Shown here: positions 2,657-26,368 of the stretch, piece by piece
How positions within the stretch are numbered: the stretch's first letter is position 1
Layout of the letters: every line of letters starts with the position of its first letter
Source: Deltaproteobacteria bacterium
Lineage (GTDB): Bacteria > Desulfobacterota > Desulfobacteria > Desulfobacterales > Desulfosarcinaceae
Reading direction: 5' to 3'
DNA length: 64,000 bases
Assembly (NCBI GenBank): GCA_021824175.1
Contig: JAKALP010000002.1
Span: 236,005 to 300,004 of the forward strand
Program-made: the position numbers and the translations under genes
Notes under the pieces: model-generated
The model's input: only the letters and a program-made list of their open reading frames with translations
Database searches by the model: none
What the model was told of the DNA's origin: nothing

Positions 2657-2957
2657 AAGGTCATATCTCCTGACCTAAGATCGGCCAATGGGGAGCTATG
2701 CTTTAGCCCCGGCGCTGCCTATGGACCATGGAAAATGATGGCACATGGGGCCATCAGTCATTTCATGCCCATTGGCCATTCATTCCATGTACGGGTGATT
2801 TGCTCTTCCCATGGGCGGCCTCTATCCATTTTGTAAAATTAAAGTTTGATTTCAGATAGATGGCTCGAATAGGCCCTTGCGGCCTGTTTTTTGCTCTATT
2901 GCGGCTCGAAGTGCTGATCGCCCAAATAGAGAAGTAACGCTTCGGAAAGGAGATTTT
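2657..2957. other. Intergenic region upstream of the VIT/VWA gene
   Basis: About 300 nt between the divergent phosphoesterase and VIT/VWA genes, so it must hold both promoters. It is locally rich in CCATGG/CATGGG-like words between 2715 and 2815 and becomes AT-rich near 2830-2860. The ribosome-binding site AAGGAG at 2948-2953 precedes the ATG at 2958 and decides that start. No riboswitch or terminator was recognised. Confidence 0.5.
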
Positions 2958-5204
2958 ATGTTTAGATCATTGGAAATCATAAAGGTATTCGTTGTCGCGT
3001 TGGTGTTGGTCCTGTGCGGCGCGGTGGCCGGGGCCTTGGCCGATTATGTCACCATCGACGGCCGGCCGGTCACCCAGGGGCAGATGCTCATTGCCAGCGC
3101 CAGCCTGGATCAGGTCAAGGCAAGCACCCCGACGACCGCGGCCCCGGACCAGTTTATTCTGCAAAAAACCGAGGTAGAAGCGGAGATCACCGGCGTGGTG
3201 GTGCGGGTCCGCTTGCGCCAGGTGTTCCAGAACCCTTACGATGAACGGTTGGAAACCATTTATGTCTTCCCCATGCCGGAAAATGCGGCCGTGGATGGCT
3301 ACTCTTTCCGCATCGGCGAAAAAGTTATTAAGGGAGTAGTCAAAGAAAAAGAACAGGCCCGCAAGGAGTATGAGCAGGCCAAGCAGGAGGGCCGCAAGGC
3401 CGGATTGCTGGAACAGGAGCGACCGGATATCTTCACCCAATCCCTGGTCAATATTCCGCCCAAGGCTACGGTGGTGGCCAACATCGAATATGTGCACCCG
3501 CTGAAGATCGACGGCGCCAGCTATCTCTTCAACTTCCCCATGGTGGTGGCGCCCCGTTATATTCCAGGCCAACCGGTGGGCCGGGCCAATGTGGGCCGCG
3601 GCTGGGCCAACGACACCGACCAGGTGCCCGATGCTTCCCGCATCACGCCGCAGTATATGCCGCCGGGCATGCGGGCCGGCAATGACATCAGCATCAGCGT
3701 GAAAATCGATGCCGGTATGCCCATCCAGGCCGTTACCGGCGTGACCCATGAACTGGCCGTGAACAACACCTCGCAGACCATGGCCACCGTGACCTTGAAA
3801 AACGGGCCGGTGATACCCAACAAGGATTTTATGCTGGAGTATAGAGTCGGGGGCCAAAGCACCATGCTGGCGGCCATGACGCACAAAGAAGAACAGGGCG
3901 ACGGCTTTTTCAGCATCGTGATTCAGCCCAAGCACAGCGTGGAGAGAAAAGAAATTGCGCCGCGCGACCTGATCCTGGTGCTCGATACCAGCGGGTCCAT
4001 GCAGGGCGCGCCGGTCAGTCAGCTGAGGATCTTCGCGGAATATGTTCTGGGCACGCTCAACCCCCAGGACCGGTTCAATGTGATCGCCTTCAGCAATGAC
4101 CTCAACATGTTTGCTTCGCAGTACACGGATGCCACCCCGGCGAACATCGCCAATGGGCAAAATTTTGTCCGCGGTTTGGTCTCCTCCGGCGGCACCGAAA
4201 TGCTGCCCGCCCTGCGCGAAGCGCTGAAGCCGGCTTCGGAAAAAGCGCAGCGAAACGAATATGTGATTCTGGTGACCGACGCGCTGGTGGGCAACGATTC
4301 GTCCATCCTGAACTATCTCAATCAACCCAAATTCGCCCACCTCAGAGTCTATCCGGTGGCCATGGGACCGGCGCCCAATGATTACCTGATCCAGCGCGCC
4401 GCGGAAATCGGCCGCGGCTTCTCCTTGCGCATTGCCAATGAAGACAATGCGGCCGAGATGGCCAAGCGGTTCGCCGCTAAGATTTCTTTCCCCATCATGA
4501 CCGATCTGGCCCTGGATTGGGGCCAGTTGAAAGTCAAGGATCTGATTCCCGAACCCCTGCCCGATCTCTATGCGGACCGGCCCCTGGTGCTCATCGGCCG
4601 CTATGAAAAGGCCGGCGGCGCCAAAGTAAAACTCAGCGGCAATATCATGGGAAGTAAAGTGGTCACCGAGTTCGACCTGACCCTGCCGGAAACCGACAAG
4701 TCCCATGACAGCCTGCCCGTGCTCTGGGCCCGGGCCCGCATCCGGCAACTGGAGAACAAAGAGGTGGGCAATATCTCCAATGCCACCAAAGACAAAATCA
4801 CCGAGATCGGTCTGAACTATCAGCTGGTCACTGATTATACTTCCTTTATCGCGGTGGAACGGGATATTCCGGGCGATCTTTCCAAAACCTTGAAGACCCA
4901 GCCCGTGCTGCTGGCCATTCCCGAGGGCATGGAGCATCTCTTTGACGGCAGTGCCCCGACGAGTGGCGCCAATGTCTATGCGCCCAGCAGCGGCAGTGCC
5001 ACCGTCGTCGCCCAGGCCGGCGAACGCCAACAGCCCGCGGCGCCCACGGCGCAGGTCAACGTGCCCCGTGCAACGGATGCGGGCTCAGCACGCAGATCGG
5101 GCGGCGGGGGTGGGGGCGGATCAGTGGAGGGGATCACTATCATCCTCTCTTCGCTTCTGCTGGCAATACGATCCATTTCCATCTTCCGAAATCGAAAGAA
5201 GTAG
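2958..5204 (+). CDS. VIT and VWA domain surface protein with GlyGly-CTERM-like sorting tail
   Basis: A 748-residue exported protein. Start chosen at the ATG after AAGGAG; the upstream in-frame extension is ignored. Order: signal peptide (residues 1-30), VIT domain (about 55-170, with VFPMPENAAVDGY and the Lys/Glu-rich segment typical of inter-alpha-trypsin inhibitor proteins), von Willebrand A domain (about 335-510) with an intact MIDAS motif DTSGSMQG, a beta-rich C-terminal region, then a low-complexity linker and a tail made of seven glycines and a serine, one hydrophobic helix and the basic end FRNRKK. That tripartite tail matches the GlyGly-CTERM signal processed by rhombosortases, and a rhombosortase gene follows 90 nt downstream. 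Known marine proteobacterial VIT/VWA proteins use a class of sortase; here the sorting enzyme appears to be different. Ligand unknown. Confidence 0.88.
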   Translation: MFRSLEIIKVFVVALVLVLCGAVAGALADYVTIDGRPVTQGQMLIASASLDQVKASTPTTAAPDQFILQKTEVEAEITGVVVRVRLRQVFQNPYDERLETIYVFPMPENAAVDGYSFRIGEKVIKGVVKEKEQARKEYEQAKQEGRKAGLLEQERPDIFTQSLVNIPPKATVVANIEYVHPLKIDGASYLFNFPMVVAPRYIPGQPVGRANVGRGWANDTDQVPDASRITPQYMPPGMRAGNDISISVKIDAGMPIQAVTGVTHELAVNNTSQTMATVTLKNGPVIPNKDFMLEYRVGGQSTMLAAMTHKEEQGDGFFSIVIQPKHSVERKEIAPRDLILVLDTSGSMQGAPVSQLRIFAEYVLGTLNPQDRFNVIAFSNDLNMFASQYTDATPANIANGQNFVRGLVSSGGTEMLPALREALKPASEKAQRNEYVILVTDALVGNDSSILNYLNQPKFAHLRVYPVAMGPAPNDYLIQRAAEIGRGFSLRIANEDNAAEMAKRFAAKISFPIMTDLALDWGQLKVKDLIPEPLPDLYADRPLVLIGRYEKAGGAKVKLSGNIMGSKVVTEFDLTLPETDKSHDSLPVLWARARIRQLENKEVGNISNATKDKITEIGLNYQLVTDYTSFIAVERDIPGDLSKTLKTQPVLLAIPEGMEHLFDGSAPTSGANVYAPSSGSATVVAQAGERQQPAAPTAQVNVPRATDAGSARRSGGGGGGGSVEGITIILSSLLLAIRSISIFRNRKK

Positions 5205-12299: not shown

Positions 12300-12692
12300 T
12301 GCCTATGGTTATTGGAAGACCGGACCCATTGTCCGGGAAACCTCGTGCTGTGTTCGAATAGGGCCATAGTGACGCCGACCCCGATTCAATGACTCTCTCA
12401 GGCAGATAATGACTGTAAGGATCAATCCTTTTGCGACGGTAAATATCATGTAAAGTTCAAACATCAAGGGGTGTTATTCCAAATTTCTTGGAATAGGGCG
12501 CCATTTAGCATCAAGGGTGCGGGAAAGTCAATCGGTGACCAAGCCATCTTGCCTCTGGCGTTGACCCCCGGGTCGTTTCCGTTTATGGTTTCATCGAAGA
12601 TGAATCGGCTTTCATGTCCGGTCCGACGGCTGGATAAATTCCCGAAGACTTCTAGTTATACTCAATGGAAGAAGAGAGGAGTGCGGTTGACC
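12300..12692. other. Divergent intergenic region with two small hairpins
   Basis: About 390 nt between divergent genes. Two inverted repeats are visible: CCGGAC/GTCCGG at 12320-12336 and TATTCCAA/TTGGAATA at 12475-12495. The second has the size of a dimeric-regulator operator. An open frame runs back from 12693 to 12471 but has no coding character and no ribosome-binding site, so it was left out of the SMP-30 gene. No promoter could be fixed by eye. Confidence 0.4.
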
Positions 12693-13559
12693 ATGAATGT
12701 TTCGGAAGTCAAAACCATGGGCCATGGTTTGATCCGGCCCGAAGGGGTCATGGCGCTGGACGATGGCAGCCTTTATACGGCCGATGCCCGCGGGCAGTGC
12801 GCCCACATTCACCCGTACGGCCGCACGGAGTATTTCGGCGATCTGGGTGGCGCGCCCAATGGGGTCTGCCTCGACACCACGGGCCGCTGTATTGTGGCCA
12901 ATATTGGCAACGGCCAGGTGCAGGCCGTGACGCGCGACGGCCGGCACGAAGTACTTCTGACGCATGCCGATGGCCGGCGCATGCGGGCCCCCAACTTTCC
13001 ATTCGTTGACTCCCAGGACCGCCTGTGGGTGTCCAACTCCACTGAAATCGATGATATCGACTCCGTCCTGCGCCAGCCCCGGCCCGATGGCAGCGTGGTG
13101 CTGATCGCCGGCGGCCGGGCGCGCATCGTGGCTGACGGCATTTACTTCGCCAACGGCCTCACTCTGGACCAGGAAGAAAAGTATCTCTACGTGGCCCAGA
13201 CCATGCGGCGCAATATCTTGCGATACCGGATTCTGGACGACGGCGCCCTGGGGCCGACCGAGGTGTTCGGTCCCGATCCCCTGGCCCACCTGGGATACCC
13301 GGACGGCATTGCCTTTGACGAAGCCGGCAATCTCTGGGTCACTTTTCCAGCCTGGAATGTCATCGGGTATCTGACACCGATCGGGCAGCTGGTAGTGGTT
13401 TTGGACGATTCCCGGCGTCAAGTACTTCAGCGCCCCTCCAATATCTGTTTCGGCGGGCCGGAGCGCAAAACCGCCTACATCGGCAGCCTGGACGGCACCA
13501 CCATTCCGTACTTTTCCGTGCCCCACCCCGGCATGCGGCTGGTGCATCATAAGAAGTAA
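12693..13559 (+). CDS. SMP-30/gluconolactonase/LRE-like six-bladed beta-propeller protein
   Basis: A 288-residue protein with repeated propeller strands and the family's hallmark segments: RPEGVMALDDGSLYTADARG, GAPNGVCLDTTGR, FANGLTLDQEEKYLYVAQT, and GYPDGIAFDEAGNLWVTF, which carry the Glu, Asn and Asp metal ligands of SMP-30-like lactonases. There is no signal peptide, so it is probably cytoplasmic. Start chosen at ATG 12693 with GAGAGGAG at 12674-12681; an upstream in-frame extension lacks homology. Members hydrolyse sugar lactones or other esters; the substrate here is unknown. The gene stops one base before the open frame of a Cache-domain remnant, which suggests a rearrangement junction at its 3' end. 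Confidence 0.82.
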   Translation: MNVSEVKTMGHGLIRPEGVMALDDGSLYTADARGQCAHIHPYGRTEYFGDLGGAPNGVCLDTTGRCIVANIGNGQVQAVTRDGRHEVLLTHADGRRMRAPNFPFVDSQDRLWVSNSTEIDDIDSVLRQPRPDGSVVLIAGGRARIVADGIYFANGLTLDQEEKYLYVAQTMRRNILRYRILDDGALGPTEVFGPDPLAHLGYPDGIAFDEAGNLWVTFPAWNVIGYLTPIGQLVVVLDDSRRQVLQRPSNICFGGPERKTAYIGSLDGTTIPYFSVPHPGMRLVHHKK

Positions 13560-13560
13560 T

Positions 13561-13716
13561 TTCAAGGAGTTTATCAAGTTGGCCAACGATGAAGGCCAAG
13601 GCTGGGTGGATTATAAGTTTCCCAAGCCCGGTCAGGAGAAGCCGGTGGCCAAAACCTCCTATATCCAGCGCGTGGAAGGAACTCAATATTTGGTTGGCGC
13701 GGGCGTCTATAAATAA
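13561..13716 (+). pseudogene. Remnant of a single Cache sensor domain (C-terminal end only)
   Basis: Read in frame from 13561, the DNA encodes 51 residues and a TAA: it begins FKEFIKLANDEGQGWVDYKF and ends QYLVGAGVYK. The GxGWVDYxFPxP core, the Lys-x-SYxxRV segment and the final GAGVY are the C-terminal signature of sCache (Cache_2) ligand-binding domains found in chemoreceptors and sensor kinases. No upstream Cache sequence exists; the frame runs backward into the end of the SMP-30 gene in another phase. AAGGAG followed by TTG at 13579 could make a 45-residue peptide, but a decayed gene fragment is the simpler reading. Confidence 0.7.
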
Positions 13717-13904
13717 TCCCATCCTGCCGATTGGTCTGTTGTTGACTCCAGTGGATAAATGAACGCCGGCCTGGCCTCGGCTGCTATAAAAGCGAAACTC
13801 GCCCTATGGACTAGAGCGGGTTTGGCTTGCCTTTCCCGAATTATCTTTTGCTTCTATTCTTGGCCTTTGTGCGCCCCTGCCAGAAGTAACTTCTGCGGAT
13901 GACT

Positions 13905-16900
13905 TCAGGCTGGCCGCTGAATGAACTTGATTTTCTCCAAATGCGCCAAATAGCGTTGAAATAGATCTTTATCTATCACTGGCATGGTCTGGCGATAGTC
14001 GGGAATGGCTTGAAGTGTATTGGCAAAGGAGAATTCGGGCAGTAGGTTGCCATTCATGGAAGTAATTTCTTGTCGGATCACAGGTACATAGGGCGTCAAG
14101 TCGCCATGGCCGTTGGCTTGGGCGGCGAGCAATTCCAACCATTGGGCGCATGGCAACACCGGAAAGTCATACCCGCCCGAAATACAATATTCGATCAGCC
14201 GGCGCACGGGAACAACCCTGGGGTGAACAATATGATAGTTCCGGCCTTGGGCCAGGGGTGTCAAGGCAATGCTCACAATCGCGTCGGCGGCGGCATCCAC
14301 CGGCACGCCGTTAATTTGGAAATCCAAATCCGGAAAGGCGCGTACTTTGGTAAAGGTCCTGATCATCACATTGACCAAATCTTCGAGGTTGGCGCAACCG
14401 TTGGTGCGGTCGCCCAGGACGGAGGAGGGCCTGAAGATCGATATGGGCAGTCCGGCTTTTCTAGCCGACGCCACGATTTTCTCCGCGACCCATTTGCTTT
14501 GGGAGTAACCGAAGAAAAGCTTATCCGGGTCGCCCAGTTCATCCTCTTCTTGGATGGTCTTGCCGCCGACAAAACCGTTTTGCTCAAAAACTCCCATAGT
14601 GGAGATATAAAAGAGCGGCTTGATCTTCCGATGAGCGGCTAAATTCAATATCTCCTTGGTGCCTTCCACATTGGGCTTTTTTAGAAATGGGTAGGGATAA
14701 GCAAAATTGACCACGCTGCCACAATGGTAAATCGCATTCATCTGTTGTGAGAGAGATTCAAATGTTCCGGCATCCATTCCCAGGCGAGGCTGACTCAAGT
14801 CGCCCAGAACAGGGGTTATTCTGTGCACAAAGTCTTCTCGCCAGAGGGCCAGTTGCTTCAGATTGGCTTGAATGCGTTGAGCGCCCATGAAAGCAGATTG
14901 GGCCCGAACCAGACAGTAGATTGCCGCACTGGACTTTTCCAGCAGTCGCGCTAGGATATAGGCTCCCAGAAAGCCGGTGGCGCCGGTAAGAAAGATCCTT
15001 TCGGGTTGGTGGAAAAGAGCCCGGTCCATAGGCGCGCGGTCCATCTCAAGATCGAGCCGAAAAGCAATTTCGGAGGCGAAATCGATCGGGGCCTTTGCGC
15101 GTCTGGAATCACTTTGGTTACGGTGGCGCTCAATCAATTCAGCCAGTCGCGCGACCGTAAGATTCTCATAGATGCTTTGAATAGTTAGATCCAGGTTGAA
15201 GCCGGCATTGAGGTCGATTAACAACCGGGTGGCTGAAATGGAATCGCCGCCCAAATCCAGAAAGCTGGTGTGAATGCTAATCTGATCCAGGTTCAAGATC
15301 GACCGCCATACCTGCGCAATCCGAGCTTCCAAGGCCGTGGTTGGGGCAACGTATGGCTCGTTGCAAACGGCTGTGGCCGGCGCTGGAAAAGCACGGCGAT
15401 CGATTTTACCGCCCAGGGTCACGGGAAATTGGTCCATGACGACAAAGTCCGAGGGGATCATATGCTCCGGCAGCAGGTGTTTTAAGCTCTTTTTGAGTTC
15501 GGCGAGGTGGAAGGGGCGTGGTTCCCTTGCGGGAATAATATAGGCAACGATCTTTTTCTCTCCGGCTTTGTCCTCGCGCAGCAGGGCCGTGCATGCCTTG
15601 ATCTCATCATTTTGAGTCACGACGCGCTCGATCTCTTCCAGTTCGATGCGGTGCCCCCGGATTTTAACCTGATTATCGATGCGGCCCACGAATGCGATCT
15701 CGCCATTGGGAAGAAAGCGCGCCAGGTCACCGGTATTATAGATTTTGGCGGAGACTTCGGGATCGAAGGGGTTGGGGATAAACCGTTCGGAAGTCAATTC
15801 CGGACGGCCATGATAGCCTTGAGCCAGGCCATGCCCGCCGATGTAGAGTTCGCCCGCGGCGCCAATGGGCATGGGATTGAGGTGTTCGTCCAGGATGTAG
15901 ATTTGAGTATTGGCCATGGGCCGGCCGATGGTGACTTGTTGATCGAATTCCAGCCGTTTAATGGTGGCGCAAACCGTGGCTTCGGCCGGTCCGTAACCGT
16001 TGAAGGCCGCCTGGCTCCATTGAACCAGGGTTTGGGCCAAATTGTACGGTAGAGCCTCGCCGCCGTTGAGCAACGTTATGCCGGGATCACCTGGCCAGCC
16101 GGCGTGTTCCAGCATGCGCCAGGTCGGAGTGGCCGCGATCAGCAAGGCGAGGTGTTTGGTTTCGAGAAATTTCTTCAAGCGCACGCCGTCGTTGGAGATC
16201 TCCCGTGGGGCCAATACCAAGGTGGCTCCTTTGACCAATGGGTAGAATATCTCCAGAACCGAGGCATCGTAGTTCAAGGAGGCGATGGTGATGGCGCGAG
16301 CGCCGGGTTGAAGCTGCAAATGCTCATCAATACCAAGAAGCAAATTGACCAACCCGGCGTGGCGCACCTTGACGCCCTTGGGCCTTCCGGTGGTCCCGGA
16401 AGTATAAATCATGTAGGCCAGGTCATGGTCGTTTGAGCCCCTGTCCGGGGATGGCGCTCCTACGGCAGCCGGGGCGTTTGCGATTATATTCGCCGCGGGC
16501 ATGGGTTTATCCACGCAAATGATGGTCGCACCGGTATCGGGAAGCCGGTTGAGAAGCTCCCATCGGGTGAAAAGAATCTTGGCCTGAGCATCGGTCAGCA
16601 TATACTTCAGGCGCTCCTGGGGATAGGAGAGATCCAAGGCCACATAGGCGCTGCCGGCCTTCAAGACGGCCAACATTGCGATGATCAACTCGAAAGATTT
16701 TTCCAGACCCAAACCGATCACATCACCGGCCCCAAGCCCATGTTTTTGAAGATAACTGGCCCACTGATCGGACCGAAGATCCAGCTCGCCGTAACTCATA
16801 TGCCGTCCGTCCAGCTCCAGAGCTATCGCCTCTGGCCGCGCCTGGGCTTGCCGGCGGAAGAGCTCAGGCACGCCAAGATGAGCTGGATGGGTTTTACGGG

Positions 16901-17711
16901 TGGCATTCCATTCAAAAAGTATTTGACGGCATTCGGCGGGTTCCATGAGCGATAGACGGAAAATATCCTGGTCGGGATTCTCACCAATGCTTCGCAGCAG
17001 TTGGATCAAGTGACGGACCAGCCGGCGCGCGGTGTCGTCCGTTAAAGGCGGGGATGCAAATTGGATGCGCCCTTTAAAGCCGTCGGAGGCCACTTCTTCC
17101 ACCAGCAAACTGAGCGGCCCGAGGTGGGGCCGCAGATCACTCAGATGCATGGGAAACCAGTTGAGGCGCGCATCCGCACCGGTCTTGGGTCCGGCGCCGC
17201 GATAGGCAAATAGAGCATCATAGCGTGTCGGCTGGCCCGGATGGCCCGGGGGATACAGCGCCGCGGCAATTTCTTCGGAGGGTAGATCCAAATGGGCATG
17301 GGCTTCAGATACCGATTGTTTAACCGCCAGAAGCAATTCCCGGAAGGATAAGGGAGGGGAGAAGAGGGTTCGGATGATGGGGATCTTCGGCAGACCATGA
17401 TGAGGGCTGTCGGTGGCGATGGACAAAGCCGTGGCCACCGGGATGTCGTTGCCGCCACCATAGCGCATGAGAAGCAATTGGAAGGCGGCTAATAGGATTT
17501 CCGCGGCGGCTGCCTTTTCGGCGGCTGCCAAGCGTCCTATGCCGGCCATAAGTTCTTCCGGCAACGTGAACTCAATGGCGCCCGCCTCCGTGGCCGGCGC
17601 CAGGCCGCGGATCTGATGGGCAAGCGCCAATCGGCTGGGCGCGCCTTGGAGTTGCCGCTGCCAGTAATCGGTTTGGCGCCGCAAAACCATGGCCTGCTTG
17701 GGCAACGGCAA
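13905..17711 (-). other. Lys2-like half of the megasynthase: (half C)-A-PCP-R2
   Basis: Sub-region of the megasynthase, residues about 1755-3022. It begins with only the C-terminal lobe of a condensation domain (TDYWQRQLQGAPSRLAL and on), followed by adenylation, carrier and reductase domains. Fungal alpha-aminoadipate reductase Lys2 has exactly this order, with a condensation-like N-terminal stretch that helps adenylation rather than condensing. Aligning the A domain with GrsA by eye gives the pocket residues D-A-L-A-L-G-G-V-C-K; the leading Asp is the ligand for an alpha-amino group, so an amino acid with a mid-sized side chain is likely. R2 should release it as an amino aldehyde or alcohol. 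Confidence 0.7.
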
Positions 17712-20700
17712 ATGCTTTTGTTTCTGAAAAAAGGCGATGACGCCGGCCATCACTTCGTGGGCGCGCGGGGCATTGGCGATCAGTTTTTGGTCCGCTTTGA
17801 GGAGCGCCTTCAAGGTATTGGTATTATCGATTTTGGATCGGTAGTAGTGCAGCAATTGCTCGGCCGAATAAAGATCGAGAAAAGGATGAAGCGCAAACAG
17901 CGCGCAGCAGGGAGTTGCCTGTACCCGACGCTTCCAGTGCTCATAGCCCAAGCTTTCAACGGGGTAGCCCGCCTGGCGCATCAGGCGCGCAAAATCCGAA
18001 ATCAGGAACGGCTGCCGATTGATCAGGTGATAGGTTTGGGGCTGATTCAATTGGGCCATGGCCACGATCATGCGGCTGAGATGATCCACGCAATGGATAT
18101 CGAAATTGACTTCTTCGCTGGGAATGGCGCCGATTTCAATACAGCCCTTGATCAGGCGCACGATAAAATCGGTGGCTTTCATGGCGCCGGTCCGGACATC
18201 GCCAGCCACGAAGTCAAAGCGGTAGATGCTCACAGGCAGCCCCATTTGGCGCGCTTCCAGGCACAAACGCTCAGCCACCCATTTGCTTTGGGCGTAGCCA
18301 TTGTTCAGGGCTTCGGGGGGCGGTTGCTCCGATTCGCGCCACTCATACTTCCCTTCCAGCAGCGGCAGCACGGCCAAAGAGGAGATAAAGTGCAAGGGCT
18401 TGATTTTGTGAAGGAGGCTGAACCGGATAGCCTGGGTGGTGCCTTCCACGTTGGCTCTTTTTAGGGCGTGGTAGGGCTTCATCCAGTCCACCACCGCCCC
18501 GCAGTGAAAGACCGTGTCAATGGAAGCGCTCAGAGCCGTGAATTCTTCCGTCCCAAGGCCGAAGTATTGTTGGGTCAGATCGCCGCACAGCACGCGCACC
18601 CTTTGCGCGGGAATGTCCGCGTTTATCTTAAACCGCCGGAAGATTTCTTCCAGTCGCTGTAAACCGTCGGCCGGGTCCGCGGCCCGCACCAGGCAGTAAA
18701 TGATGGCTTGCGTTTGTTCCAGTAGTTGCCGGAGCAGAAAAGCGCCCAGGAACCCGGTCGCCCCCGTCAATAAAATCCTCCGCCCCAAGCCTTGGGAATG
18801 CAAAAGAGGCGAAGCAGCTTTTAGGCTTTCATAGGCAGGCTGGAGCTTATGTTGTTCGGTTTTCACCTCTTGCCAAAGGTCTGGCCGAACGCTGGATTGC
18901 CGCCCGCTGAGGCGCTCGGCCAGAGATTGGATGCTGGGGCACTCTTGAATTACGGAGATGGGCCATTGGGCGGCAAAGCAGGTCTTCAGGCGATCAAAGA
19001 GATGTATGAGTCCTAATGAGTCCAGGCCCAGTTCATCAAAGCCCGTAGTGACATGGATTTGGTCGGCCGGCAGGTGTAGAATTTGGGACACTTCCGTTGC
19101 CATCCATTGGCGCAGTTCTTCGAAATTGGGTGGCCGAACCTCGGCGGCCATTGCTGCTTTAAACGGCTGACGCGCGGTAGGAGCGGCGACCGGAAGCCAG
19201 TACCGTTTTTTTTCAAAGGGATAGGCGGGCAGCGGTACTTTTCGTCCGGCCCCTTTTGGAGAGAGCGCCGGCCACGCCACAGCCGCGCCTTGAAGCCAGT
19301 TTTGAGCCAGCGTTTGGAGAGATTTGGCGGCCGTGCAACTCTGGCCGACCGATGGCGCGAACAAGCCGCCGGATTCAAGATGATCTTCTAGTAATGCCTG
19401 GTGGAGAACTCTTTTGAGCTCATCACGGCTTTGAACAATGAAGGCCGCGCGTTGCGGATAGTGATCTCTACCCAATTGCAGGGTATGGCAAATATCGGCA
19501 AGGGAGATAGTCTGGTACAATGGGTTTTGCAAATATTGAAGCAATGCTTCCATGCGCCGGGTCAGGGTCGCGGAAGTCTTTGCCGATAGGACGGCCAGGC
19601 GCCATTCGGATTCCATTGACCGCGGCGGCTCCGCGAGGATTGCTTCTTCCAAAATCACGTGGGCATAGGCGCCGCCGAAACCAAACGAGCTGACGCCGGC
19701 CCGCCTGGGAGTCGGTTGGTTATCCAGTCCCGTGGGCGGCGACCAGTCAATGGTTCGGGCCGCGATGTAGAAAGGCGAATGCTTCAGGTCAATGTAGGGG
19801 TTGAGATTTTGGAAATGCAGCGTGACCGGGATTTTTTGATAGTAAAGGGCCAACGCGCATTTAATGAGCCCCGCGATTCCGGCGGCTGCTTCGGCATGGC
19901 CGATATTGCTTTTAACCGATCCCAGGGCGCAATAGGCCTTTTTATCGTGATGGCCCGCGCGGTTCTGCGCAGTCCCGAAGGCTTGGGTCAGGGCGTTGAC
20001 CTCAATGGGGTCGCCCAACCGCGTGCCCGTGCCGTGGGCTTCGATATACGTGACCGTGTCCGGGGTCACACCAGCATCGCGCAACGCGTCCTGGAGCAGT
20101 TGTGCTTGCCGGTCTTCACTGGGCGCGCTGAGGGAGGCGGTCCGGCCGCCGTGCTGCAAGGCCGAGCCACGGATCACGGCGTAGATATGATCTTTGTCTT
20201 GCACAGCCTGGGCCAAAGGTTTGAGCACCACCGCGCCGACCCCCTCGGCGCGCACATAGCCGTCGGCCGCGGCATCGAAAGTCCGGCAGGCTCCGCCGGC
20301 ACTCAAAAACCCGGCTTTGCTGAGCGACTGGAAGGTTTGGGAAGATAAGAGCAGATTGACACCGCCCGCAATAGCCAAGTCGCATTCGCCGTTGCGCATG
20401 GCCCGCACGGCCCGGTGCACGGCCACCAGGGAGCTGGAACAGGCTGTATCAATGGTTTCGCTTGGACCGTGAAGATTGAGCAGATAGGAGAGACGGTTGG
20501 CCAGCATGGCCGTGGACAGGCCCGTGGCCGTGTACACCTGGGCCGGGACCGCGCCTTGGGCCGCAATCTGGTCATAGTCGCGGTTGGCGATGCCCGCAAA
20601 GACCGCTGTGCGGGTGCCGGAAAGGTTGGAAGGCGCATAGCCCGCGTTTTCAATGGCCCCAAAGGCGATTTCGATGAATTGGCGATGCTGGGGATCCATC

Positions 20701-22973
20701 CACTGGGCCTCAGCTTCCCCGATGGAGAAGAAATCGGCGTCAAAACAGGAGAAATCTTCGATAAAGCCGCCCCAGTTGGCGGCGCGGTCGCAGGAATCAG
20801 CGCTGTCTTTTAACCAGGGCCGATTGTCGGGCAGTCGTGAGACGGCGTGCCCCCCTTTTTCGATGAGTTGCCAGAACGCTTCCACGTCTTTGGCGCCGGG
20901 AAAACGGCACGCCATGCCGATGATGGCAATGGAGCACTCGGAGCTCGGCGCTGGGTGCGGTTCCGCGGGAATCGGTTTGACGGGCGATCCGAAGAGAAAT
21001 TCGGCCAGGGCCGCAATGGTAGGGTGTTGATAGATTGCGGTGGGGGAGATGGCGCGGCCGATCAACCCTTCCAGTTCGGCCGCCAGGGCCACGGCATCCA
21101 TGGAAGACAAGCCAAATTGTCCCAGGGGCGTATCGATCCCGATGGCTTGCGGCGCCACTTGAAGCCGCTTGGCCACCAACTCCGTCAACAGAACTACACC
21201 CTGGATTTGTTCTACTACCGGAGAGGGCATTGCCATGACGTTTTTTGCTTCGGCGGATCGGTAAAGGGCTAGGTGTTCTAAGCGGTCCAGGAAAAAGGCC
21301 TGCTGGGTGTCCTTGCGGCGCACCTTGCCGCTGGTGGTTACCAGGAGGGATTTGGGCCGAATCAACGCAATGGCGGCCGGCTTGATGCCAAACTCCATGC
21401 TGATGATCTGGTTGATGCGGCCGAAGACTTCCGCGCTGTTTTGTCCATCGCCGCGGTATTCAGCCACGATGCAGACGGTTTCTCCCAGCTCGGCCTGGTC
21501 GGCAAAGGCCACCACACGTCCAGGCCGGATATCAGGGTGGCTGTGGCTGACCGCTTCTTCAATATCCTGGGGGTAGTAATTGCGGCCGTGAATGATGATC
21601 ACATCTTTCAATCGCCCCGTGATATAGAGTTCTCCCCGGTGCAGGAAGCCCAGGTCGCCGGTGCGCAAAAACGGCCCTTCGCCATTGGCCAGTCGCGCCT
21701 GAAAGATATCGCGGCTCACCTCCGGCTTGCCCCAATATCCGGCCGCCACCGAAGGCCCTTTAAGCCAGATTTCTCCAATCTGATCTTCCCGGCATGGCTT
21801 GAGATTGACGTAATCCACAATGGCCAATTGCTGCTCATGGGAAGTATTTCCGTGACCCACGAGAGCAATCCGGCCAGGCGCCGGCCCGCCGGGCAAGGCC
21901 TCGGCCCGGTCCTCACCCAACGCAGCGCGGCCCACATCCAGCGTGTTGGCTGGCCGGCCTTTTTGGCCGCCGGCAATGAACAGCGTGGCTTCCGCCATGC
22001 CGAAGGCGGGATATAAGGTCTCCTGGCGCAACCCGTATTTTTTAAAGGTTTGGTAAAAATGCTCCAAGGTCTCCCGCCGCACCGGCTCCGCGCCATTGAT
22101 GGCCGTGTCCCAGGAGCTCAGATCCAGGTGCTGGTTTCCCAGTTTATGGGAATTGCGGATGCAAAGTTCGTAAGCGAAATTGGGCGCGGTGCTCCAGGTG
22201 CCGCCATGGTCCGAGATGGCCTGGAGCCAGCACAGCGGCGCGCGCACGAAGCGCTCGGGCGACATTAAGACGCTGGGAAAGCCCGCACGGCAGGGAAGTA
22301 ATATGCAGCCGATCAAGCCCATGTCATGGTAATGGGGCAGCCAACACACCGCGACGCTGCTTCGCGAAAGATGGGTGAATTGCTGGATGAGCGCTGTGTT
22401 GTGCAACAAATTGCCGTGGGTGACCATTACCCCCTTGGGGTAGCCGGTGGAGCCGGAAGTATATTGAAGAAAGGCCAGAGAGCTTTGCTCAAGCGCCAGT
22501 GGCCGGTATTGAAAGCGCCAATGGTCTTCGATGGATTCGGTTTCGAGCAGCGCGGTGTTCTTCCATTCGGGGCTTTTTCCCGCCATGGCGTGGAACAAGG
22601 GCCCAATGGTCGCATCGGCCAATACTACCGTGGCGCCGGCATCCTGGTGAATGTGTTTGAGCCGGTTGAGCATGTCGGCCGTGGCGGGCGGAAATACCGG
22701 CACGGCAATCACGCCCGCATAGAGAGAGCCGATAAAGGCATGGATAAACGGCATGCCCGGAGTGTAGATCATCAGGGCGCGGTCTCCGGGTTTGGTATGC
22801 TCCTGAAGGAAACCAGCCACGGCCATAGCTCTTTCGTCCAGGCGGGCAAAGGAGCAGCGCTCCGCGACTTCTCCAGAGAGATCCAGAAAGGTAAAGGCTG
22901 TTATTTCAGGAATGTTTTGGGCGTGCGCGCGAACGACAGCGACGAAATCGGGATAGCTGCTTTCCAGTGCCAT
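13905..22973 (-). CDS. Hybrid megasynthase FAAL-ACP-KS-ACP-R-(half C)-A-PCP-R, 3022 residues
   Basis: Domains in order with rough residues: fatty acyl-AMP ligase (1-575; YTSGSTGYPKGV, RTGDLGFLHRGE), ACP1 (590-670, phosphopantetheine Ser624 in GLSSMD), ketosynthase (676-1110; Cys845 in DTACSSS, His in EAHGTGT and KSNIGHAEAAAG), a KS-flanking linker ending in LPAYPFEKKRYW, ACP2 (Ser1319 in GLDSLG), reductase R1 (1395-1740; GATGFLGA, YAQSK), the second half of a condensation domain (1765-2020; no HHxxxDG), adenylation domain (2025-2500; YTSGTTGRPKG, GGKIDR), PCP (Ser2578 in GGDSIS) and terminal reductase R2 (2650-3022; GATGFLGA, YSQSK). There is no acyltransferase, ketoreductase or thioesterase. 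It should load a fatty acid, extend it with malonate supplied in trans, and release aldehydes reductively. The gene is continuous; no tailoring gene, AT or phosphopantetheinyl transferase is adjacent. Confidence 0.93.
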   Translation of the reverse strand: MALESSYPDFVAVVRAHAQNIPEITAFTFLDLSGEVAERCSFARLDERAMAVAGFLQEHTKPGDRALMIYTPGMPFIHAFIGSLYAGVIAVPVFPPATADMLNRLKHIHQDAGATVVLADATIGPLFHAMAGKSPEWKNTALLETESIEDHWRFQYRPLALEQSSLAFLQYTSGSTGYPKGVMVTHGNLLHNTALIQQFTHLSRSSVAVCWLPHYHDMGLIGCILLPCRAGFPSVLMSPERFVRAPLCWLQAISDHGGTWSTAPNFAYELCIRNSHKLGNQHLDLSSWDTAINGAEPVRRETLEHFYQTFKKYGLRQETLYPAFGMAEATLFIAGGQKGRPANTLDVGRAALGEDRAEALPGGPAPGRIALVGHGNTSHEQQLAIVDYVNLKPCREDQIGEIWLKGPSVAAGYWGKPEVSRDIFQARLANGEGPFLRTGDLGFLHRGELYITGRLKDVIIIHGRNYYPQDIEEAVSHSHPDIRPGRVVAFADQAELGETVCIVAEYRGDGQNSAEVFGRINQIISMEFGIKPAAIALIRPKSLLVTTSGKVRRKDTQQAFFLDRLEHLALYRSAEAKNVMAMPSPVVEQIQGVVLLTELVAKRLQVAPQAIGIDTPLGQFGLSSMDAVALAAELEGLIGRAISPTAIYQHPTIAALAEFLFGSPVKPIPAEPHPAPSSECSIAIIGMACRFPGAKDVEAFWQLIEKGGHAVSRLPDNRPWLKDSADSCDRAANWGGFIEDFSCFDADFFSIGEAEAQWMDPQHRQFIEIAFGAIENAGYAPSNLSGTRTAVFAGIANRDYDQIAAQGAVPAQVYTATGLSTAMLANRLSYLLNLHGPSETIDTACSSSLVAVHRAVRAMRNGECDLAIAGGVNLLLSSQTFQSLSKAGFLSAGGACRTFDAAADGYVRAEGVGAVVLKPLAQAVQDKDHIYAVIRGSALQHGGRTASLSAPSEDRQAQLLQDALRDAGVTPDTVTYIEAHGTGTRLGDPIEVNALTQAFGTAQNRAGHHDKKAYCALGSVKSNIGHAEAAAGIAGLIKCALALYYQKIPVTLHFQNLNPYIDLKHSPFYIAARTIDWSPPTGLDNQPTPRRAGVSSFGFGGAYAHVILEEAILAEPPRSMESEWRLAVLSAKTSATLTRRMEALLQYLQNPLYQTISLADICHTLQLGRDHYPQRAAFIVQSRDELKRVLHQALLEDHLESGGLFAPSVGQSCTAAKSLQTLAQNWLQGAAVAWPALSPKGAGRKVPLPAYPFEKKRYWLPVAAPTARQPFKAAMAAEVRPPNFEELRQWMATEVSQILHLPADQIHVTTGFDELGLDSLGLIHLFDRLKTCFAAQWPISVIQECPSIQSLAERLSGRQSSVRPDLWQEVKTEQHKLQPAYESLKAASPLLHSQGLGRRILLTGATGFLGAFLLRQLLEQTQAIIYCLVRAADPADGLQRLEEIFRRFKINADIPAQRVRVLCGDLTQQYFGLGTEEFTALSASIDTVFHCGAVVDWMKPYHALKRANVEGTTQAIRFSLLHKIKPLHFISSLAVLPLLEGKYEWRESEQPPPEALNNGYAQSKWVAERLCLEARQMGLPVSIYRFDFVAGDVRTGAMKATDFIVRLIKGCIEIGAIPSEEVNFDIHCVDHLSRMIVAMAQLNQPQTYHLINRQPFLISDFARLMRQAGYPVESLGYEHWKRRVQATPCCALFALHPFLDLYSAEQLLHYYRSKIDNTNTLKALLKADQKLIANAPRAHEVMAGVIAFFQKQKHLPLPKQAMVLRRQTDYWQRQLQGAPSRLALAHQIRGLAPATEAGAIEFTLPEELMAGIGRLAAAEKAAAAEILLAAFQLLLMRYGGGNDIPVATALSIATDSPHHGLPKIPIIRTLFSPPLSFRELLLAVKQSVSEAHAHLDLPSEEIAAALYPPGHPGQPTRYDALFAYRGAGPKTGADARLNWFPMHLSDLRPHLGPLSLLVEEVASDGFKGRIQFASPPLTDDTARRLVRHLIQLLRSIGENPDQDIFRLSLMEPAECRQILFEWNATRKTHPAHLGVPELFRRQAQARPEAIALELDGRHMSYGELDLRSDQWASYLQKHGLGAGDVIGLGLEKSFELIIAMLAVLKAGSAYVALDLSYPQERLKYMLTDAQAKILFTRWELLNRLPDTGATIICVDKPMPAANIIANAPAAVGAPSPDRGSNDHDLAYMIYTSGTTGRPKGVKVRHAGLVNLLLGIDEHLQLQPGARAITIASLNYDASVLEIFYPLVKGATLVLAPREISNDGVRLKKFLETKHLALLIAATPTWRMLEHAGWPGDPGITLLNGGEALPYNLAQTLVQWSQAAFNGYGPAEATVCATIKRLEFDQQVTIGRPMANTQIYILDEHLNPMPIGAAGELYIGGHGLAQGYHGRPELTSERFIPNPFDPEVSAKIYNTGDLARFLPNGEIAFVGRIDNQVKIRGHRIELEEIERVVTQNDEIKACTALLREDKAGEKKIVAYIIPAREPRPFHLAELKKSLKHLLPEHMIPSDFVVMDQFPVTLGGKIDRRAFPAPATAVCNEPYVAPTTALEARIAQVWRSILNLDQISIHTSFLDLGGDSISATRLLIDLNAGFNLDLTIQSIYENLTVARLAELIERHRNQSDSRRAKAPIDFASEIAFRLDLEMDRAPMDRALFHQPERIFLTGATGFLGAYILARLLEKSSAAIYCLVRAQSAFMGAQRIQANLKQLALWREDFVHRITPVLGDLSQPRLGMDAGTFESLSQQMNAIYHCGSVVNFAYPYPFLKKPNVEGTKEILNLAAHRKIKPLFYISTMGVFEQNGFVGGKTIQEEDELGDPDKLFFGYSQSKWVAEKIVASARKAGLPISIFRPSSVLGDRTNGCANLEDLVNVMIRTFTKVRAFPDLDFQINGVPVDAAADAIVSIALTPLAQGRNYHIVHPRVVPVRRLIEYCISGGYDFPVLPCAQWLELLAAQANGHGDLTPYVPVIRQEITSMNGNLLPEFSFANTLQAIPDYRQTMPVIDKDLFQRYLAHLEKIKFIQRPA
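17712..22973 (-). other. Polyketide half of the megasynthase: FAAL-ACP-KS-ACP-R1
   Basis: Sub-region of the megasynthase, residues 1 to about 1754. FAAL activates a fatty acid as acyl-AMP and loads ACP1; the ketosynthase would condense it with malonyl on ACP2. The 130-residue segment after the KS (VLSAKTSATLTRRMEALLQY and on) is the linker seen in trans-AT synthases, so a separate malonyltransferase such as FabD is needed. R1 carries the NADPH-binding Rossmann motif and a Tyr-x-x-x-Lys pair, so it should be able to reduce the ACP2-bound thioester to an aldehyde. By itself this half is a complete line with initiation, one extension and reductive release. Confidence 0.75.
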
Positions 22974-23186
22974 TGTCTGTCTTTTGCTCCTTTTTTATTG
23001 ATTGGAATCCAAGATCAAACAACAACGGTCATCCGGCATCGGGCCAGCGGGGCTGAAAACGCCCAGGCAGAGCTTGGGAGATGGCTTGCTTCAGCACAAA
23101 ATGTAGAAAGATGTCATTTAGGGTATGTTTTTCCTTTCATCTGAAGCGCTTTTCAAGGCGCCTTGTCCGGCCCGGTCTCGGCCGGT

Positions 23187-24371
23187 TCAAATCTTGGAGC
23201 GGGCAAACAGGTCATCCCATACCTCCAAGGCTGGCTTGGCTTGAAAATCCTTGTCCATTAAGCCGAGTGAAATAAAGAAATACAGGTTCGGGGGCGGCTC
23301 AACGGTCAATTGGTCCATATCGATATCCACAAAAAGAGTTTGGGCCATCGCCCGCGCCTGGACGCTGTCCAGCAAATCGGCTTGGCGCCGGATGTAGCGC
23401 GCCTGGACCTGGGGCGAAGAGACAATGGCGTCAACGCCGGCGCTGGTCCAGCCGCCTTCGCACACCAATACGGGCATGGAGCGTCCATTCAACAGACGAC
23501 GGTAGTAATTATCGGGAATATCTTCCGGGACGGCATAGCTGAAGTATGGGTATGAGGAGAGCCCCAGCATCTGCATAAACGGGAAATCGCTAAAATCCTG
23601 TTCAATGCCCGCATAGGGTTCGGAGCTGCCGAATACTCCCCAGGCGGTTTCCACCTGCACGCTGATCAGCAGTGGGGATGTTACGTGCGCGGCCTGAAGG
23701 TCGCTGGCCGCATTATTGGCGGCTTGAACCATGGCGGCGTAAACCGCTGGTGAAGCCATGCGGCGCACCAAATTGGTCTCGGCCGTCAAGCCGATGTACT
23801 CGGGATGAAAGCGCTGCGCAAAGGTCAGCACATAGTCGCGGTAAAGCTGCTGCACGGCAGGTTCTGTGATGCTGCGCCCTAGGGCTCGCAACTGAGGCGG
23901 CTCTTGATAACGAGCCAGGCCGTCGGTGAGATCGGCCATGAAGAGAATACGCAGTCCGTGGTCGTGTAGAGCTCCTATCAACCCATCTTTATGCTCTTCC
24001 AGAATTTTAGTGGTGCTTTTCCCGCTGAGCAGCTCGGTCCAGGGCAATTCTTCATGGAGGACCGCCAATTCGGCCCGGCTGCTCAGCAGGTCAATGGTTC
24101 GCAAAATTTCGGGGATGTTGAAACGCGGCGGGGTGGGGTAAAAGCCCATCTCCCAGGTGCGGGTGGGCGTGGGGGTTGGAGTGGGTCCAGGGGCGGAACT
24201 GCTTCCGTCAGCGGTGCCGCCCCCGCCGCAGCCCATGAGTATTCCAAATATGGCCAGCGCGGATGAAAGTATTAGAGTCAGTCCTAAAATTTTTACTTCT
24301 AGGAATGCTTGGTAGATCTTTTTGACGCGATGGCGGTTTTGGTGCGTAAAGATGTCCATGGCAAGGGGCAT
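23187..24371 (-). CDS. Lipoprotein with glycoside-hydrolase-like TIM barrel
   Basis: A 394-residue protein. The ATG at 24371 has GGAG nine bases upstream; a longer reading from GTG 24440 is open but less supported. After a basic N-terminal stretch comes a hydrophobic segment ending in the lipobox LMGC, then a Gly/Ser/Pro/Thr-rich tether (PTPTPTPTRT). The rest looks like a (beta/alpha)8 barrel with possible acid/base and nucleophile glutamates in GLTAETN and VLVCEGGWTS, spaced as in clan-A glycosidases. Likely displayed on the outer or inner membrane and acting on a polysaccharide, but no GH family was recognised. It is 213 nt upstream of the megasynthase on the same strand, so co-transcription is possible but unproven. 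Confidence 0.6.
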   Translation of the reverse strand: MPLAMDIFTHQNRHRVKKIYQAFLEVKILGLTLILSSALAIFGILMGCGGGGTADGSSSAPGPTPTPTPTRTWEMGFYPTPPRFNIPEILRTIDLLSSRAELAVLHEELPWTELLSGKSTTKILEEHKDGLIGALHDHGLRILFMADLTDGLARYQEPPQLRALGRSITEPAVQQLYRDYVLTFAQRFHPEYIGLTAETNLVRRMASPAVYAAMVQAANNAASDLQAAHVTSPLLISVQVETAWGVFGSSEPYAGIEQDFSDFPFMQMLGLSSYPYFSYAVPEDIPDNYYRRLLNGRSMPVLVCEGGWTSAGVDAIVSSPQVQARYIRRQADLLDSVQARAMAQTLFVDIDMDQLTVEPPPNLYFFISLGLMDKDFQAKPALEVWDDLFARSKI

Positions 24372-24501
24372 GTTATGCAACTCCAGTTCGGTAGGTAGTT
24401 CAACGGGCTGCTTTCGGTTCACAATCATCCTGAGCCGCACGGCGCAATCGCTATCATCAATGCTTCGGCGATCAATCCGACCCTTTCATCGCGTTTAATT
24501 T

Positions 24502-25216: not shown

Positions 25217-26245
25217 TTATAAGTACTTTTCATAATTAGAACGCAATTGGGTCGACAATTGGCGAACCGTATCAAAGGCCTGTTCCACGGTGGCGGTCTT
25301 ATCTGGATTGACCAGGCAGCAAGTGGCGGGCGAGAGCATGCCCTGATGAATGATCTGTTGCAAATCCAAGCCTTTGCGAGCTAATCGCTCCCAAACCGTC
25401 ATCAGCCGCGCCTGCAGGGTGTCCAAATTTTCTTTGCTGAACGGTTCCATGCCCGTGGGCACAATGCCCCACACAAGGATGCCGCCCTTGTCCAAAAAAC
25501 GCCGGATCGAAGGGGCGTAGTTGGCAAATACTTCCGCATTGGCGTAAACGTCCAGCGACAGGATATCCATATCCAAGCCAAGTAGAAAATCCCAATCCGG
25601 GTTGCCGCACAAATGGATGCCTCTGGGGCGATCGACGGTGGCAAAAAAGCCGTCCAGATCCTGCTTGGCCTTGAGGTCGCCATAGCCGGACAGAGCGGAG
25701 AATAAAAATTGTAGCCCCGGTTCATCCACGAACATAAAGGCATTGGGATTCTTGTGCTTCAGACGCGCCAGCTGCACGTTCAGGCGTTTGGCCATGAACT
25801 CCAGCATAAAGGGCCGCACCGTGTCATCGAAGAGAATCGGCCGATCATCTTGATCCAGAATGTTGAAGCCAAAGCTGACCGGGCCTTCCAGCTGGCCGCG
25901 GATGGCCGGGCGATTGCTCAGGTCCAAGGCCAGGAAGCGGTGGTAGACGGTTGAATAATCGGGGCTGATGTCAAAGTAGTCCGGTTCATCAAAACGCGCC
26001 ATGGTCTCTTCCAATTCGGCGATGAACTTCTCCATGGAAAAACGCAAGGTGCGTTGGTTCACATCCAGCACGATGCCGGGGAAGTGCTCCGAGGCTTGCA
26101 CATACATATCTTCGTAGTAGTTGGAGTTGGGCAGTTGGGGCCAGTAGGGGACGTCCAGCGAAAGGGCCATTTCAAGGGCGCGCGCCACGTCCGTGTGGGG
26201 CATCACCGCCATGGCGGTGGTCAACAGCTTTCCTGGAATGGGCAT
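25217..26245 (-). CDS. UROD/MetE-like (beta/alpha)8 methyltransferase-superfamily protein
   Basis: A 342-residue soluble protein beginning at the ATG after GGAGG (a TTG two codons upstream was rejected). It resembles the uroporphyrinogen decarboxylase / cobalamin-independent methionine synthase superfamily: GPVSFGF in the substrate-strand region, FVDEPGLQF, the His-x-Cys pair in IHLCGNPDW and a second cysteine block in SPATCCLV. These are positioned like the zinc ligands of MetE and of corrinoid methyltransferases MtaA/MtbA. A role in methyl transfer to or from a thiol or corrinoid is plausible; methionine synthesis itself is not supported because the N-terminal folate domain is absent. The neighbours are the VOC and cupin genes on the same strand. 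Confidence 0.68.
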   Translation of the reverse strand: MPIPGKLLTTAMAVMPHTDVARALEMALSLDVPYWPQLPNSNYYEDMYVQASEHFPGIVLDVNQRTLRFSMEKFIAELEETMARFDEPDYFDISPDYSTVYHRFLALDLSNRPAIRGQLEGPVSFGFNILDQDDRPILFDDTVRPFMLEFMAKRLNVQLARLKHKNPNAFMFVDEPGLQFLFSALSGYGDLKAKQDLDGFFATVDRPRGIHLCGNPDWDFLLGLDMDILSLDVYANAEVFANYAPSIRRFLDKGGILVWGIVPTGMEPFSKENLDTLQARLMTVWERLARKGLDLQQIIHQGMLSPATCCLVNPDKTATVEQAFDTVRQLSTQLRSNYEKYL

Positions 26246-26368
26246 GATCAACCTCCATCATTCAAATTGGAGCGTTCTTGCCGGCCGCCTCCGCGAATCC
26301 GGCCAAGAAGAGTTGTCGGATATGGAAGTAATCTCTCGGGATGGGGTGTGACTCTTTGAATCGAAGCA

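Follow-up and report, generated by a model that had tools for sequence, protein, structure and literature searches.

Where an assembly line uses reductive release, this step normally comes last, and we take the S. coelicolor PKS thioreductase 8v1x to be the terminal reductase of its own system. The thioester reductase (R) domain of MxaA (4u7w/4w4t) is terminal in its line according to the PDB title, and a terminal reductase of cyanobacterial megasynthases is described in the accessible part of PMC12184294. R domains carry out two- or four-electron reductions, and the aldehydes formed may cyclise to imines (accessible part of PMC8949500); amino aldehydes released by such domains tend to give pyrazines (accessible part of PMC10947199). 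The PKS-NRPS BurF (malleicyprol) merges two chains, and an aldehyde produced by its reductase undergoes Knoevenagel-type ring closure. The chains are joined there as an ester by a noncanonical condensation domain, and the accessible part of the source mentions only a terminal reductase (PMC12304814). In the literature searched, coverage of which was partial, we found no description of an NRPS or PKS with an internal or second R domain.

We analysed a 64,000-nucleotide stretch of DNA (the window) from a Deltaproteobacteria bacterium, in which a single ORF of 3022 aa (13905..22973, minus strand) encodes a megasynthase. Its start codon is ATG, with a GGAG-containing stretch just upstream. Pfam and NCBIfam models gave the domain order FAAL-ACP-KS-ACP-R1-half-C-A-PCP-R2. 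This confirmed the FAAL-ACP-KS-ACP-R1 line and half C-A-PCP-R2 unit proposed in a preliminary description of the sequence, whose coordinates are exact and which named no strand, and both model sets returned the two thioester reductase stretches for which it had named domain annotation as a check. The protein begins with a fatty acyl-AMP ligase (FAAL; 21276..22973, residues 1-566), which is matched by these models over about residues 7-566 and whose best PDB matches include FadD32 and FadD28. ACP1 follows (20988..21197, residues 593-662), and the two stand at the start of the line as in FAAL-primed PKS-NRPS lipopeptide lines. The ketosynthase (KS; 19644..20942, residues 678-1110) has a model match at 681-1054 and is extended by a RhiE/CurL-like C-terminal linker (19164..19643, residues 1111-1270), which is matched on to about residue 1193. 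Next come ACP2 (18924..19121, residues 1285-1350), the internal thioester reductase R1 (17739..18791, residues 1395-1745; GATGFLG, Ser-Tyr-Lys) and a half condensation domain (half-C; 16914..17738, residues 1746-2020), which consists of the C-terminal lobe only and is without HHxxxDG. The adenylation (A) domain (15384..16913, residues 2021-2530; best AMP-binding stretch 2039-2388), the PCP (15138..15341, residues 2545-2612) and the terminal thioester reductase R2 (13920..15026, residues 2650-3018; GATGFLG, Thr-Tyr-Lys) complete the protein, all domains being encoded on the minus strand. The best stretch for NAD_binding_4 was 1402-1636 (R1) and that for TIGR01746 was 2660-3018 (R2). Pfam PP-binding matched three stretches, the best at 596-660; the positions of ACP2 and PCP were set from their Ser motifs, not from the printed Pfam stretches. 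Scans of 13500-23300 revealed no excess of sigma-70 promoters (4 found, shuffle mean 4.6) or of terminators (13 found, shuffle mean 14.0).

With residues 10-3005 as the query, a search of 97 genomes, the host's own included, added two homologues that span the full length (identities 42% and 39%); both lie in open frames of 3019 codons. An alignment of R1 and half-C from three members was used as the query on 389 genomes of the order, again including the host's own. Matches at 1e-50 were obtained in 15 genomes, and in five, including the host, they run across R1 into half-C, in open frames of 3013-3029 codons. Among 395 genomes of the phylum, the R1-half-C query matched the host genome alone at 1e-60. 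The sample contained ten other genomes from the window's genus, none of which gave a match at 1e-50; the distribution is therefore patchy. In scans of named genomes, the whole protein retrieved no relative; the R1-half-C alignment did, the first four of the best 80 of 354 loci being the four homologues. These are Deltaproteobacteria bacterium CSMAG_383 (L054; 3019 aa, at a contig edge with the start missing), Proteobacteria bacterium MM_PC_MetaG.mb.113 (L055; 3020 aa), Desulforapulum autotrophicum FI88_52_17 (L056; 3012 aa) and Desulfobacterales bacterium MAG.254 (L057; 2990 aa), all of them MAGs. The order shared by the five family genomes is probably Desulfobacterales. The comparison with related genomes thus extended the whole architecture given in the preliminary description to four other genomes of the same order. 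An assembly chimera is ruled out by its occurrence in five genomes. Throughout the family, the carrier Ser of ACP1 and ACP2, the GGDS motif of the PCP and the Cys-His-His residues of the ketosynthase (DTACSSS, HGTGT, GH) are present in 5/5 members.

R2 occupies the terminal position expected of an R domain, and R1 is internal, unlike the reductases of MxaA and 8v1x. Both contain TGATGFLGA and Tyr-x-x-x-Lys in the window protein, and both exceed the curated TIGR01746 cut-off of 213.35 bits (R2, 306.2; R1, 297). All five R1 and all five R2 domains keep GxxGxxG, the CLVR Arg, the catalytic Ser/Thr, the Tyr and the Lys. The NADPH motif and Tyr/Lys pair that had been read in both domains were thus borne out, and R1 has kept its NADPH-binding and catalytic residues. 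Redox-inactive R* domains are defined by loss of the catalytic Tyr (accessible part of PMC8949500), and this class is rejected for R1 and R2, both of which keep it. A wider alignment contained 79 R domains (10 from the family, 67 from other loci and 2 typed PDB fragments), leaving out R matches covering <85% of the model and ORFs holding R alone. All 79 have GxxGxxG, the CLVR Arg, Tyr and Lys. A GY..SKWV-type pattern had served in part to retrieve the other loci, so their Tyr and Lys do not count as an independent test; the informative residues are those in R2 and in the remaining four R1 copies, which were found with profiles. The catalytic Ser/Thr position is Thr in 63 and Ser in 16 of the 79 domains, with Ser in all five R1 and Thr in all five R2. 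The Ser in R1, where most aligned R domains have Thr, counts against the two reductive off-loading lines that we favour below.

Invariant columns among the five proteins amount to 36% in KS, 29% in R1, 20% in R2, 18% in A, 13% in ACP1, 12% in PCP, 10% in the KS linker, 9% in ACP2 and 3% in half-C; the 20% of FAAL is lowered by the missing start of L054. With columns treated as independent, Fisher tests gave p about 3e-19 for R1 versus half-C and p 0.004 for R1 versus R2. The internal R domain is thus the better conserved of the two. For the R1-half-C junction, whose structure prediction had been suggested as a check, the AlphaFold model has a mean pLDDT of 86.1, and its top Foldseek matches are MxaA R (4w4t, 4u7w) and 8v1x. 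MxaA R is also the best PDB sequence match of both R1 and R2.

ORFs with two R domains proved rare in TIGR01746 searches, in which up to four candidates per genome were scored. The 389 order genomes gave at least 30 strong R matches (1e-50) from 22 genomes and at least 25 ORFs, and among the matches scored five ORFs have two R domains, namely the five family members. In the phylum sample of 395 genomes there were at least six TIGR01746 matches in five genomes, and only the window ORF has two among the matches scored. The best 80 of the 354 named loci were annotated with models for FAAL, KS, A, T, C and R only, some ORFs ending at locus edges. Of these, 72 have R in a multi-domain ORF and four have two R per ORF; an R followed by another modelled domain occurs only in the four family members. 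Selection by similarity to R1-half-C means that these 80 loci do not represent all NRPSs fairly. In four related loci among them (L061, L085, L090, L099), a single R follows a C-A-PCP.

Half-C matches Pfam Condensation, and no other family, in all five members. In the window member the match (residues 1765-2019) covers profile positions 192-456 of 456, and it begins at profile position 190-193 in the members with printed positions. No HHxxxD motif occurs anywhere in the five family proteins, and a complete condensation domain with HHxxxDG that would join the acyl chain to the amino acid was not found in the window protein. With 9 of 275 columns invariant, half-C has the fewest of all domains. 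In the host genome (99.52% complete) it is the sole Condensation match at 0.001, which argues against amide formation. The four other family genomes contain seven Condensation matches, four of which are the members' own half-C. The remaining three, each an N-lobe part, come from open frames of their own, of 464 codons (G046) and of 473 and 451 codons (G494), which could act in trans in these two genomes. A full-length C domain was found in none of the four (one of them, G048, being 79% complete). Condensation-domain structures appeared from rank 27 on in the Foldseek search with the R1-half-C model, at an rmsd of 11-17 angstrom; because these values are large, the assignment of half-C rests on the sequence profile, not on the fold search. 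Taken together, the conservation in five diverged homologues, a half-C without HHxxxDG and the lack of any other condensation match in the host genome support well the earlier claim of two intact, separate reductases.

The second unit had been described as Lys2-like. The half C-A-PCP-R order is indeed common to this unit and Lys2/alpha-aminoadipate reductase (TIGR03443), and this part of the comparison stands; the score of 669.5 bits and an A pocket that varies among the five members do not agree with it. A Lys2 orthologue is rejected, since the score is below the TIGR03443 equivalog cut-off of 1030.1 bits. Half-C matches the N-terminal part of TIGR03443 weakly (E 0.0014 for the window member; three of five members at 0.01), and unlike Lys2 the unit sits fused behind a FAAL-PKS-R line. 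The A-domain residues that we take to be the equivalents of Asp235 and Lys517, by the numbering assumed here, are kept in five of five members. The code positions are likewise those we presume, anchored by hand; the pocket read in this way differs among the members, the window protein and L054 being alike and the other three differing. Given this manual anchoring, and a position 278 that moves by one depending on the alignment, we make no call of the A-domain substrate.

No match to Acyl_transf_1 (Pfam) was found in the 3022-aa protein, a point absent from the preliminary description, and the KS module, without an AT as in trans-AT PKSs, would therefore need feeding in trans. Of the 11 AT matches in the host genome, none lies on contig C14, which holds the window; there are also two ACPS-family matches. 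The PDB matches of the KS include three entries labelled AT-less polyketide synthase (ranks 2, 9 and lower); the KS also scores well against the cis-AT ketosynthases CurL and PikA1, with the AT-less ones ranking high. It might also be by-passed, in which case R1 would release a plain fatty aldehyde. Further large KS+AT open frames of 1512-2931 codons lie on host contigs C22 (about 111-130 kb), C34 (110-123 kb) and C42. Their content suggests PUFA-synthase-like clusters, which could supply acyl chains to FAAL.

In the tree built from the 79 R domains, R1 of all five members forms a clade of its own (100/100) and R2 a separate one (100/99), the latter adjoining a myxobacterial group with MxaA (84/90). 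R1 is therefore no tandem copy of R2, and these separate clades rule out an R duplication inside the gene. The R1 clade groups with five actinobacterial rows including 8v1x (97/93), at least three of them from NRPS-type ORFs. Because of these three rows, and because several rows are long or odd in composition, R1 is not confidently PKS-derived. The inner branching differs between the two clades: L054 is sister to the window member in R2 (99/89) and the first branch in R1 (98/71). The family's A domains likewise make up one clade (SH-aLRT 99), which groups weakly with L103, L062 and L063 (84). L103, from Anaerolineales bacterium UBA2317, has the FAAL, KS, A, PCP and terminal R in the same order as the family and differs by a cis-AT, a full condensation domain (2-451 of 456) and the lack of an internal R. 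Compared with L103, R1 sits where the N-lobe of C would be. From this comparison of sequences, R1 may have replaced the condensation N-lobe; alternatively, an R-ended PKS may have been fused to a free half C-A-PCP-R unit. The cyanobacterium Westiellopsis prolifica has a half C-A-PCP-R open frame (L082, 7109-11101; half-C residues 31-305), possibly a free form of the second half of the megasynthase. A Planctomycetota locus (L097, 3323-11134) encodes FAAL-ACP-KS-DH-KR-ACP-R, in which the only R is terminal and AT was unmatched at 1e-8; judged by its domains, it would be a single-R counterpart of the first half. Two loci from the taxonomic order of the family (L038 and L039; G533:C102 and G096:C427) hold short open frames, of 445 and 460 codons, with strong matches to the R1 model, possibly stand-alone thioester reductases.

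We consider it probable, with modest confidence, that the protein is a single-chain PKS-NRPS hybrid with two separate reductive off-loading lines, whose fatty and amino aldehydes then react together. In the first line, FAAL would adenylate a fatty acid and load it onto ACP1, and the KS would extend the acyl chain once, the malonyl unit being set on ACP2 by an AT acting in trans. R1 would then use NAD(P)H to release the chain, most likely a beta-ketoacyl chain, as an aldehyde. In the second line, the A domain would activate an alpha-amino acid, the PCP would carry it and R2 would release the alpha-amino aldehyde. Since there would be no amide step, the products would be two aldehydes; made side by side, they could form an imine or enaminone, possibly followed by ring closure to an N-heterocycle. 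As part of this whole explanation, and with the same modest confidence, half-C probably cannot form an amide and would serve as a relic or structural platform. We infer the substrates, the beta-keto state, the release of aldehydes rather than alcohols, the coupling chemistry and the pyrrole product. A beta-keto aldehyde and an alpha-amino aldehyde carry the groups needed for a pyrrole, by way of an enaminone and subsequent attack of the active methylene on the second aldehyde. The R-released aldehyde of BurF, with its Knoevenagel-type ring closure, is a chemical precedent (accessible part of PMC12304814). Only tentatively do we suggest the fuller history, in which replacement of the condensation N-lobe by R1 turned an amide-forming FAAL-PKS-NRPS line into a generator of two aldehydes, a beta-keto fatty one and an alpha-amino one, that condense without a further enzyme to a long-chain N-heterocycle, for example a 3-acylpyrrole. 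Every part of this protein is of a known kind; what appears to be new is their arrangement, which five diverged genomes have conserved. If the explanation is true, megasynthases can drop thiotemplated amide formation and co-produce two reactive aldehydes, which raises the question of whether one polypeptide makes both partners of a spontaneous heterocycle.

The same domains could be used differently. The R1 aldehyde might stay on the enzyme and form an imine with the amine of the PCP-bound amino acid; R2 would then release the coupled chain, which would cyclise; half-C and the linker would be a scaffold, and the C-N bond would be made via an imine and not an amide. The two halves are fused in all five members at a near-constant length (2990-3022 aa, one member without its start), and half-C is kept in each of them though poorly conserved, as such channelling would lead one to expect. 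Its 9 of 275 invariant columns speak against it, since no conserved active site is thereby visible in half-C, and imines on carriers are reversible; we regard this coupling as unlikely. Quite unlikely, in our view, is a four-electron reduction by R1 and/or R2, which would yield a fatty alcohol or 1,3-ketol and an amino alcohol that stay uncoupled. The general ability of R domains to perform two- or four-electron reductions (accessible part of PMC8949500) agrees with it, as does the place of R2 beside the myxalamid R group (84/90), whose engineered use, in the accessible part of the source, gives primary alcohols. The grouping of R1 with the actinobacterial R domains including 8v1x (97/93) points away from alcohols, and such a grouping settles neither R domain.

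A further possibility is an ordinary lipo-amino aldehyde line, in which R1 would be inert or structural and a condensation enzyme acting in trans would pass the chain to the amino acid, giving an N-acyl amino aldehyde. FAAL-ACP-KS-AT-ACP-C-A-PCP-R does exist as an ordinary line in the Anaerolineales locus L103, with which the family A domains group weakly (SH-aLRT 84), and two of the five family genomes have other condensation-superfamily ORFs. The R1 motifs are intact, however, and R1 is better conserved than R2; moreover, there is no second condensation match in the host genome and none of full length in the four others. We therefore consider an inert R1 very improbable. Against the two off-loading lines that we favour, we count the fact that the four named homologues are MAGs, one of them from a genome only 79% complete, the lack of conserved neighbours confirming a pathway, the A pocket that varies among members and the N-lobe ORFs in two of the genomes. 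The ability of R domains to proceed to alcohols and the possible by-passing of the KS weigh on the same side.

By eye, no conserved gene cluster or tailoring genes were found beside the five members, with the exception of an upstream pair in L055 and L056. In the window, an SMP-30/strictosidine-synthase-like gene (12471-13559, plus strand; PF08450, with PF03088 below its cut-off) faces the 3' end of the megasynthase gene and was not seen by eye beside the four homologues. The gene directly upstream of the megasynthase (23187-24440, minus strand) encodes a 417-aa protein without a Pfam match at 1e-3. The same holds for a 344-aa protein (25217-26251, minus strand), whose gene belongs to a series upstream of the megasynthase, all on one strand, that also includes cupin, glyoxalase and DinB-like genes. 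The pair in L055 (883-4860) and L056 (1266-5219), both of GTDB family f18, consists of a kinase-like gene (by eye) followed by a gene of 534 and 524 aa, respectively, upstream of the megasynthase. The 534-aa protein of L055 is a pentapeptide-repeat protein (Pfam), and the 524-aa gene of L056 was read by eye. The pentapeptide-repeat class includes self-protection proteins.
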